From Cornus controversa (Eukaryota > Streptophyta > Magnoliopsida > Cornales > Cornaceae): 64,000 bases of DNA. Position numbers and translations under genes: made by a program. The stretch covers positions 10,340,501-10,404,500 of the forward strand of contig CM048852.1 of the NCBI GenBank assembly GCA_026545225.1, read 5' to 3'. Shown in pieces: positions 38,871-42,559 of this stretch. The notes below the pieces were generated by a model that was not told the DNA's origin, searched no databases, and was given only the letters and a program-made list of their open reading frames with translations. Each line of letters begins with the position of its first letter. Position 1 is the stretch's first letter.

Positions 38871-40846
38871 ATCCAACATCACACCCTATTGGATTTCTTA
38901 CCATTCCATAGCTTATAGGGTGTCTTATCAAGTTTCTTTTGAATAATAACTCTATTTATGACATAGCAAAAAGTGCTAACGACTTCGGCCCAAAAATATC
39001 TAGGTAAATTATGCTCATTAAGCATAGTCCTAATCATTTCTTGAAAGGATCTATTCTTCCTTTCAACAACACCATTTTGTTGAGGAGTCCTAAAAGCCGA
39101 AAGATTGTGATCATAGCCATTTTCATCACAAAATTTTTCTAATTCATGATTTTCAAATTCTCTACCTCTATCATTCCTAATGGTCTTAATTTTTTAGTCA
39201 TTTTCATTTTGAAATTTTCTACAAAATTTGACAAAAGTTGCATGAGCCTCCTTCTTGTGAGTGAGAAAGAAAACCCAATAAAGTCTAGTGTAATCATCAA
39301 CAATAACAAATGTATAAAGTTTTCCACCTAAACTTGCTACTCTCTCCAGACCAAACAAATCCATATAAAACAATTCTAAAGGTCTAGAAAATGTGATGTC
39401 CTTTTTCTTATTAAAGGAGGACTTGACTTGCTTCCCTATTTGACAAGCATTACAAGTCTTGTCTTTTATGAACTTAACCTTTGGGAAGCTGATGTGATTT
39501 CAATTCTACTTAACTACTCACAATAGAACGAGTACTCGTAGGACAGGGCTATATAGAGGGTGTCGAACCTCAAGGACTTGCAAGGTTGAATTATTATGTT
39601 AGTTAGTCTTTAAATTAATTCTAAAATAATTAGAAAATAATTGTTGATATTTGTTCTTTAATTTAATTGAGAAAATTAAAGTTATTTGTAAATTTATTTT
39701 ATGAAATTTAATCCAGAAGAGAAGGTCCTGGGAATTGACTTCACCACTAACCTTCTGACAATGATAATTGTACTAATTTGTGACGTGATCTAATCTATGC
39801 ATTCAGAAAAGAATGGCTACAAGCCTAATTCAGTTCTATCAAGAGGATTCGTTCAACATACAATTAAGCATAACTCGTCTTCGCTTAGCATGGCCTATAC
39901 ATCGGATTAACTAATGATATGATAACCCATCTTTGTTTAGTACGAATTATCAAAACTCTAAGTTGAACGATCTCTGAAAACTATTGTATAACCCGTCTTA
40001 ACAAAATCATAGAAGTTGAAAAGAACCAACTCTAATCATGCAAATTTACATTCATTCTACAAGAACAAGATTCAATATGCAATGAAATAATCCATTAAAA
40101 TTCAAACTAACAGCACAGCTCTTGTTAAGTCTTGGTTATACAATCAATGCACAAATTAAGTCGTTCCCAAATTAATATACAAATTAAAACATTGAAAGAC
40201 AGGTTAGGGTTATGTCACTTCCCCGAAATGGTGTTTAGCTGCTCATGATCGGAGGTCCAAGCTTAAACGATGATGAAATCGCCATCTTCTTGCTCGTATC
40301 GTCACGAATCGCCTCTATATATCTCTCTGTATTTCTCCCCTCCAGCATAATAATACCCTAGTTTTCTTTCTTTTCTCCCCTTTTACTTTGTGAAGAAAAC
40401 ACAAACGGGACACCTGGCCTCCCAAAGTGGCAAATACGTATAAGAAAATGGCACCTGTGCCTCAAAAAGCGGAATTTGTGCCCAAAAAGTGGCAGCTGCG
40501 CAAATAAGGCAGAAAGGTGCCGTAAAAATCCGTTTTAGGAAATTTTTGTGAAATATGAAAATGTACAGAATTGAATTTTCTTCAACCTATATTGAGTTTG
40601 GGTCATTTTGACAATCGTGTACGGAGTTATGGTACGAATACCAAAATGGGTCCAGAACTTTTTAAGCTTGAATTGGCCCAATCTTCACTGTGAATAAGCT
40701 CGTGATCCTTTTCTTCATTTAGATTCATTTCCAACCCATTTCTTTAGTCCCTTAAGTTTGGATCTTCAATGTAAACATATCTCATGTGTAACGCCCCACC
40801 CTATCCCGACACAATATTGTCCGCTTTTGGTTCCCCCGGACCAGAG

Positions 40847-40916
40847 TCTTCCCAGGGGGTCACCCATCCTGGTACTACTCCCAGCTAAGCACGCTTAACT
40901 GTGGAGTTCTGGTGGG
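40847..40916 (-). other. 5S rRNA-like segment, Cassandra LTR copy 1
   Basis: On the minus strand this reads CAGTTAAGCGTGCTTAGC, then AGTAGTACCAGGATGGGTGA and CCCCCTGGGAAG. It keeps the box A, intermediate element and box C of the 5S internal Pol III promoter. It is not a 5S gene: both ends of the 120-nt RNA are replaced by LTR sequence. Confidence 0.88.
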
Positions 40917-41226
40917 TTCACAACCATCACGGCTTTAAAACGTGTTGTGTCATAGAAGGGTGATAATCATACATATAATACTTCCCCATTCCACACCCAA
41001 GCGATGTGGGATTGAGCACCCTGTAGCCTGCCAGTGTGGTAGCTCGCCCAGTGTCTCGCACCCGCCCACATCACACCCGCCCACAAGGGTCACCACAATC
41101 GACCCCCCTAGGAGGCCCGACGTCCCTGTCGGCACACTTCCGGCTGGGTCAGGCTCTGATACCATTTGTAACGCCCCACCCTATCCCGACACAATATTGT
41201 CCGCTTTTGGTTCCCCCGGACCAGAG

Positions 41227-41294
41227 ACTTCCCAGGGGTCACCCATCCTGGTACTACTCCCAGCTAAGCACGCTTAACTGTGGAGTTCTGGTGG
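41227..41294 (-). other. 5S rRNA-like segment, Cassandra LTR copy 2
   Basis: Same arrangement as copy 1, with one G fewer in the G-run after the box C region. Promoter boxes are intact. Confidence 0.88.
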
Positions 41295-41545
41295 GTTCAC
41301 AACCATCACGGCTTTAAAACGCGTTGTGTCATAGAAGGGTGATAAACATACATATAATACTTCCCCATTCCACACCCAGGCGATGTGGGATTGAGCACCC
41401 TGTAGCCTGCCAGTGTGGTAGCTCGCCCAGTGTCTCGCACCCGCCCACATTACACCCGCCCACAAGGGTCACCACAATCCACCCCCCTAGGAGGCCTGAC
41501 GTCCCCGTCGGCACACTTCCGGCTGGGTCAAGCTCTGATACCATT

Positions 41546-41603
41546 TGTAACGCCCCACCCTATCCCGACACAATATTGTGTCGGGATAGGGTGGGGCGTT
41601 ACA
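41546..41603. repeat. Perfect 58-bp palindrome at the end of the Cassandra
   Basis: TGTAACGCCCC... runs to the centre CAATATTG (41,574/41,575) and is followed by its exact reverse complement, ending GGGGCGTTACA. It replaces the outer LTR on this side and abuts the target duplication TCATG. Confidence 0.95.
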
Positions 41604-42559
41604 TCATGGGTCAAACTTCAGCTTCCTACTAAAATAGCACCATCTGTAGCCCGATTGCGCCATTATTAATCAGAATTATCCTCAATCACCTGAAATCATG
41701 AAAAGATTAAAATTATTAATAAAAATATGAAATAAATATTACTAAGACACTAATTCATATAATTTTAGGGGCATTGAATACACAACATTCATTACTCATT
41801 AGAAGCCTTTGACTAAGTCTTTATTAGACAATCTTGAGATTAAGTTCATGCTAGCATGACCTAATCTTCTATGCCACAACCAACTACTATCACTAGAGGA
41901 AATAAAGCATGTGAATCTTTGATCAAACAATTCACAAAGAATAATAGTATACAAGTTATTGTTTCTATGAGGATTAAAAATTTTCAAACCATCCTTTTCA
42001 ACTATGAAATCTCTCGATTTAAAGATGATGAAGCACAAATTCGCTCCCGACCTGGTCAAACGCCAACCTATAAAATGACAAATAAAAGGTAACCGGAAGG
42101 ACACCAGCGTGGTGCCGACCGATTTCACTCCGACACTCAAGTTAGATATTGAAAAGGCTTTTAAAGCTATAACGACACTCAGAGGGTATTAATTGTGTAC
42201 CTGATATATGGACCATCTTTATATTTATAGTGGTCTGACGAAAATGTGTCCTAGTAGGAGATTGGCTCTTCAGTTCTCCAAACTTATCCATAGATAGAAA
42301 AGTCCTGGTCAAAACACATATTTTATCCATGTCATATAAATTTCAATTGTTACTCCATACGTTTTACAATCAGAGTCAAATACTCTATCAGATGCCCCCT
42401 GTTCATGAGGGTTGTTCGTCGAACTTTAGGAACACCTCAACTGGCTTGTTAGACTGTAAAATAGGACCTTTGGCCCACGAAATTTTGCTAAACCTCCACC
42501 TTGGACTCTAGATCCCACCCCAACCAACTAATGGGCCCCGAACTCACGACCTCTGAAGA

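Follow-up and report, generated by a model that had tools for sequence, protein, structure and literature searches.

A Cassandra insertion with U5 tips at both ends and a recurrent class of inverted Cassandra elements in Cornus controversa

When complementary DNA (cDNA) of yeast retrotransposons is captured at broken chromosomes, composite insertions of several fragments arise without target-site duplications. Cassandra and related terminal-repeat retrotransposons in miniature (TRIMs) have been described as tandem arrays, (LTR-int)n, in which neighbouring units of long terminal repeat (LTR) and internal domain share LTRs (Kalendar 2020, PMC7215508; Gao 2016, PMC4717578), and retroviral minus-strand strong-stop DNA can prime itself, folding back and copying itself (PMC4668388). 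Here we describe a Cassandra element in a 64,000-nt stretch of Cornus controversa DNA, the whole of which is called the window. It is the same kind of element as the tandem arrays and its units likewise share LTRs, but its arms face each other with the U5 (unique 5') ends outward. As in retroviral self-priming, minus-strand DNA would have folded back and been copied; there, however, the process is a source of aberrant DNA, whereas here the products have been inserted with target duplications. Composite, multi-fragment insertions are met in our set as they are in yeast, but 19 of the 23 elements of this class carry target duplications. We found no inverted TRIM insertion with two U5 tips in the available portions of PMC7215508, PMC10853983, PMC4717578, PMC10886601, PMC4668388 and PMC4029996; Maiwald 2021 and Yin 2014 (pear Cassandra) may describe inverted copies.

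The element occupies positions 40787–41603 (817 bp) and is flanked by TCATG on both sides. It is an aberrant Cassandra insertion and not a canonical copy. Its structure suggests that an integrase inserted a Cassandra cDNA bearing U5 tips at its two ends, a molecule produced by minus-strand synthesis switching onto a minus strand; to this reading we assign a probability of about 0.62. After two Cassandra units that are 97% alike (40787–41166, 380 bp, and 41167–41545, 379 bp) come 29 bp and, with a spacer of 0, their exact inverse (29 + 29 bp, 100% complementary), and this perfect palindrome of 58 bp closes the right end. The original prediction of a perfect foldback after two units between TCATG repeats is exact to the base (40782–41608). 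It had read the strand the wrong way round, however, since the primer-binding site (PBS), the polypurine tract (PPT)-like run and the 5S-rRNA (5S ribosomal RNA)-like stretches all lie on the minus strand. The 29 bp taken there as the start of a third LTR are instead the U5 end of a 5' LTR that was cut short, with their inverse lying outward of them, and both outer tips in the minus-strand reading are the U5 tip, i.e., the 3' end of the LTR. Because canonical Cassandra copies in the same genome (about 690 bp, LTR-int-LTR, with 5-bp duplications) run TGTGGTGACC...GGGGCGTTACA, a U3 (unique 3') tip is expected at the right end of the window element; it is absent, and a second U5 tip stands in its place. 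The features are as follows.

40782–40786, no strand: left target-site duplication TCATG, by direct reading
40787–41097, minus strand: complete LTR of 311 bp, its U5 tip GTTACA (minus strand) forming the left outer end; the ends match canonical copies
40835–40932, minus strand: 5S-rRNA-like stretch of the first LTR (Rfam RF00001, 31.5 bits, gathering score 38, model 1–120)
41098–41166, minus strand: internal domain with PBS and PPT-like GGGGGG (41103–41108), by sequence reading
41153–41164, minus strand: primer-binding site TGGTATCAGAGC, by motif match
41167–41476, minus strand: complete LTR of 310 bp, by repeat comparison
41215–41311, minus strand: 5S-rRNA-like stretch of the second LTR (RF00001, 28.0 bits, gathering score 38)
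41477–41545, minus strand: second internal domain, by sequence reading
41532–41543, minus strand: second primer-binding site TGGTATCAGAGC, by motif match
41546–41574, minus strand: U5 end (last 29 bp) of the truncated 5' LTR, the inner arm of the palindrome, by inverted-repeat search
41570–41579, no strand: ACAATATTGT, a native self-complementary 10-mer at the fold-back point, by palindrome search of the unit
41575–41603, plus strand: exact inverse of the 29 bp, its outer tip being the second U5 tip, by inverted-repeat search
41604–41608, no strand: right target-site duplication TCATG, by direct reading

The assignment to Cassandra is based on 5S-like sequence within the LTR, where matches to RF00001 in both LTRs span the whole model on the strand of the element (E 0.00024 and 0.002) but stay below the gathering score; the window contains no Rfam match at gathering level. 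The 380-bp unit is short, with GGGGGG before the LTR and a PBS that is presumably complementary to initiator tRNA-Met, and it is non-coding as judged by size only. The third mark of the family, an LTR-int-LTR order bounded by U3 and U5 outer tips, is seen in canonical copies and not in the window copy. A short duplication of fixed length at exact LTR tips, as left by an integrase, is present both here and in 19 of 23 members of the class. Rfam microRNA matches on the palindrome (mir-2242, mir-4524 and others) were rejected as a side effect of a perfect hairpin, as they lie below their gathering scores and mostly on both strands, and the viral contigs searched gave no match.

A one-off origin of the window insertion is ruled out, since the 771.7-Mb host genome, in which the window lies on contig C8, yielded 23 inverted Cassandra elements that have a U5 tip at each end. 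A genome search with window positions 40700–41700, not aimed at tips, gave at least 212 matches (40 of 5,344 first-look candidates scored, so that copy numbers are lower bounds), and one locus was fetched for each cluster of listed matches, 40 in all. Fourteen of these 40 loci are inverted, all with U5 outward (L020 has lost its left tip) and none with U3 outward on both sides; a perfect 5-bp duplication flanks 11 of these 14. Genome-wide there are 134 exact outer U5 tips over four patterns (35 + 26 + 51 + 22), defined by preceding bases that exclude the inner LTR–PBS joint. All exact U5 tips of C1 and C2 below 68 Mb were taken as a sample selected by the exact tip alone (29 tips, 27 loci), in which four of the 27 loci are inverted two-U5 elements (L015, L018, L049 and L067), a fraction for which a two-U5 element could be listed through either of its tips and in which L062 and L063, with the same flank, resemble duplicates of one insertion. 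Outside this sample facing tips were fetched, so L069–L075 and L080 are inverted by selection, while their duplications are unselected. Among the 23 elements, 19 have perfect 5-bp duplications, L067 matches at four of five bases, and L027, L030 and L075 have none. Of the 134 tips, 35 are accounted for by 20 of the 23 elements and one further tip is internal to such an element; the other 98 are found at other places.

With exact tips required and the two tips of a pair at most 5 kb apart, 16 outward-facing U5 pairs (15 loci) were obtained among the 134 tips, against no outward-facing U3 pair among the 100 listed of 125 outer U3 tips (Fisher p 1.1e-8). One element, L073, which is 437 bp long and flanked by the duplication CCATC, repeats the plan of the window copy with one unit and a U5 fold-back tip, at a slightly different turning point, so that the search for further copies with an inverted LTR end, proposed with the original prediction, has yielded both a counterpart and a recurrent class. 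The suggestion that an aberrant cDNA was a valid integrase substrate is upheld by the same elements. Since a 58-bp perfect palindrome, a 5-bp duplication and a recurring architecture coincide, a chance origin of the window structure is excluded. Integration of LTR retrotransposons in this plant thus repeatedly accepts molecules with two identical U5 tips.

Most elements differ in where their two arms join, and the inverted elements therefore represent separate events. Microhomology of at least 3 bp is found at 11 of 22 inner junctions (10 of 22 by raw script values), compared with 5.7% expected. The 10-mer ACAATATTGT is the longest perfect palindrome of the 380-bp unit and, besides its own core, the sole one of at least 8 bp. 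An exact turn at this palindrome occurs in the window element (L009), L074 and L076, i.e., at three of the 22 junctions (two by raw script values), and L016 breaks beside it. Four junction values were changed by eye: L016 to 1 (from -11), L020 to 0 (from -25), L076 to 10 (from -13) and L077 to 3 (from 12, a scripted value that tolerated mismatches). The 22 junctions include L020, L076 and L077, which are outside the 23 two-U5 elements, and leave out L011 and L075, whose right arm is uncovered by panel sequence, as well as L049 and L070. L076 and L077 were chosen from neighbours in the match listing, and L077 with L081, which is incomplete and is one of the loci noted for the sister TRIM, enters no duplication count. 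Because the palindrome of L074 has a private base in both halves, this element is not a copy of the event in the window.

The two arms of one element resemble each other more than arms paired by permutation do, with a mean least difference of 0.94 vs 1.98 (0 of 2000 permutations) over the 18 elements that have a full 141-bp copy in both arms, and by eye L072, L074 and L080 have private variants common to both arms. The natural reading is that both arms would have been copied together within a single particle. By eye, the inner junctions of L015 and L049 (both arms), L019, L020 and L030 (both sides) have complete U3 ends. These inner U3 ends keep two bases, AT, that outer tips miss, and the outer U5 tips are without the AA that follows them in tandem; the outer tips thus look processed and the inner ends do not. 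L030 (C3:2908492–2910066) has a copy of most of a tRNA directly after the U5 tip, AA and PBS (L030:1909–1976, by eye some 66 nt in length when counted from the PBS), which is joined to a U3 end with two extra bases. The Rfam tRNA model detects it on the minus strand (1922–1976, model 10–63, 29.9 bits, where the gathering score is 29), while ARAGORN on L030 did not find a tRNA. We take it to be a copy of the initiator methionine tRNA, as would be left by plus-strand DNA reading into the primer. Two-U5 insertions are a readable record of template switching or joining.

Based on these junctions, a sequence of events can be proposed for the window element. Minus-strand DNA would be primed by tRNA at the PBS, giving a 5' end that is always the U5 tip, and would have run through two units and about 34 nt of the next LTR, up to ACAATATTGT. 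There its 3' end would have annealed to this palindrome in a minus-strand DNA, which could be its own, a sister's or strong-stop DNA, and copying of that strand to its 5' end would have produced the inverse U5 tip. The shortness of one arm would reflect the position of the palindrome hotspot close to U5. The 5-bp duplications show that the molecule was inserted through its two U5 tips, in the manner of an integrase. Minus-strand switching would yield molecules with U5 at both ends and no others, and would leave microhomology and palindromes where the strand turns; this is the pattern observed.

Two U5 tips may be functional because the U5 tip resembles the U3 attachment site of Del-type chromoviruses. 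The commonest U3 attachment site of Del elements in sorghum and maize is TGTAACACCC, and their type A U5 site has GGG at -8 to -10 (PMC4029996). The Cassandra U5 tip has this GGG and, read inward (TGTAACGCCC), fits TGTAACACCC at nine of ten bases, while Cassandra's own U3 tip fits at only five of ten, and among the conserved U5 positions the comparison covers GGG. Because of the nine-base fit, a two-U5 molecule would show a Del-type integrase two good sites.

Several observations weigh against the proposed sequence of events. U3 attachment sites differ between genomes (PMC4029996), and ordinary U5–U3 insertions are the majority, so the Cassandra U3 tip is not a poor substrate. L076 with L078 (C2:71749948–71751093, duplication TAGTC) is inverted at several points, one of them the core of the palindrome seen in the window, yet its outer tips are an ordinary U5 and an ordinary U3, and a duplication is absent from three of the 23 two-U5 elements. 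The evidence comes from one genome and from sequence comparison. The arms of L012, L018, L024 and L027 carry different LTR variants and must therefore derive from two RNAs or from a tandem RNA whose units were mixed. A perfect self-fold does not explain these cases, so that the fold-back or template switch originally placed near the LTR end is supported by L073 and the recurrent class, but not in its strictest form. Finally, complete inner U3 ends with AT are joined directly, through 1 or 12 nt, or through a 279-nt filler (L020, L015, L019 and L049), which end-joining explains as well or better.

End-joining of two linear, often truncated, cDNAs at their non-U5 ends through microhomology would account for these unprocessed ends and fillers, for arms of different variants, and for the tRNA-copy end joined to a U3 end in L030. 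Joining could precede integration, or one intasome could have inserted the U5 tips of two molecules at one target, the break being sealed afterwards. U5 tips form early in reverse transcription, and incomplete cDNAs would mostly carry one, which also speaks for such joining. On the other hand, three elements turn back symmetrically at one native palindrome, which points to copying back and not to joining, as do the private variants common to both arms in L072, L074 and L080, and pairs with facing U3 outer tips number zero among the exact tips listed. We consider end-joining possible but less likely. Template switching is favoured for the window element because it turns on a native palindrome, and both processes may act. 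Autointegration was rejected as a general source, since it predicts a processed U3 tip at the junction and most junctions are without one.

Ordinary chromosomal copies might have been rearranged later (through inversion, repair of a hairpin, recombination between two elements or one insertion nested in another), in so far as recombination is believed to make Cassandra tandem arrays fluctuate (PMC7215508). Such a rearrangement would, however, need to strike the exact tip each time to leave perfect 5-bp duplications around two U5 tips in 19 of 23 elements, and a nested insertion would be marked by a U3 tip and a duplication inside the element; we regard later rearrangement as highly improbable. 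Palindromes are prone to mis-assembly at the inverted repeat, but the elements are found at separate loci on nine contigs with differing junctions and duplications, and some include pieces of other retrotransposons. Assembly error is very unlikely, and the least probable of these explanations.

Four composites link Cassandra to Ty3/gypsy, chromovirus-like pieces, namely L070, L074, L075, and L080 with L022, and three of them draw on one family. This family may belong to the Del/Tekay clade, Del and Tekay being taken as names of one clade. The Ty3/gypsy sequence between Cassandra parts measures 1,991 bp in L074 and 1,964 bp in L075, with identity over a 129-bp overlap. In L074 it contains an open stretch of 663 amino acids with RVT_1, RT_RNaseH and Integrase_H2C2 above their cut-offs (rve reaches 22.9 bits, below the cut-off of 32.6), i.e., the reverse transcriptase, RNase H and integrase zinc-binding domains in the order that defines the gypsy type. 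L075 has SH3_Tf2-1 (integrase C-terminal, SH3-like) at 99.5 bits followed by Chromo at 20.7 bits, below its cut-off of 25.1. L080 with L022 (C8:10262732–10266125, duplication GCTTG) has part of the 3' region and the apparent LTR of the L074/L075 family, joined to Cassandra at the PBS. This piece is 97.6% identical over 670 bp to L079, the 3' part of a family copy, which in turn is 97.0% identical over 1,543 bp to the L075 piece. The piece in L070 comes from a relative (75.6% over 357 bp). Perfect duplications flank L070, L074 and L080, and L075 has none. The shared bases at the composite joints, counted by eye, are 7 bp at the right of L074, 9 bp at the right of L075 and the 12-nt PBS in L022. 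No fewer than 14 other places carry the L074 piece, each match spanning 1,860 or more of its 1,991 bases with an identity of 96% or higher (at least 45 matches; 40 of 4,827 candidates scored).

Three captures from one family suggest that its RNA shared a particle with Cassandra. Because three of the four composites carry its pieces, the captured chromovirus-like family is a candidate for Cassandra's helper and would be the likely supplier of its enzymes, a role suggested by the captured pieces and the likeness of attachment sites; the start of the family's LTR, taken by eye, fits TGTAACACCC at eight of ten bases. Kojima 2024 (PMC10886601) states that nothing indicates which autonomous family mobilises Cassandra, and Kalendar 2020 (PMC7215508) calls its partners unknown. 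The composites offer a testable answer to this open helper question. More tentatively, Cassandra might have a second regular entry into the genome, in which turned-back minus-strand DNAs become two-U5 molecules that insert well (4 of 27 sampled loci) since the U5 tip mimics a Del-type U3 site better than Cassandra's own U3 does. The same events would trap co-packaged RNA and so name one chromovirus-like family as the helper.

Other junctions with foreign LTRs were noted. At L033:1752 and L052:1492 a Cassandra U3 end with two unprocessed bases is joined to the apparent U5 end of a large LTR (TGTCACGCCCC...), and an adjacent duplication was not found. A reading of L052 as a composite of Cassandra and large LTR closed by ACATC was not confirmed; a match is present at 3959 of L052, but by a rough estimate chance alone would give one with a probability of about 0.2. 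The filler between the Cassandra arms of L049 (L049:1494–1772; element duplication ATGCT) contains a PBS-like TGGTATCAGAGC, and a portion of it shows 79% similarity to sequence close to the large LTR in L052. An LTR variant with an inserted segment, tRNA-like by eye, occurs in L011, L012, L027, L069, L070 and L076; ARAGORN gave no tRNA in L011, L012 and L069, and L069 has no Rfam family at gathering level. In L013, L017, L022 and L025 the place of the Cassandra 5' LTR is taken by the U5 end of a different LTR, after which the shared PBS follows, and these swaps look as if plus-strand transfer occurred between families.

A sister TRIM family has the same kind of internal domain and, by eye, no 5S stretch, and its tip gives 11,027 matches at up to three mismatches. 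The first 100 listed places include three facing pairs by eye, of which two were fetched. One, L083, was rejected as a U5–U5 element because by eye it consists of two separate solo LTRs; the other, L082, is a two-U5 element with the duplication TTAAC.

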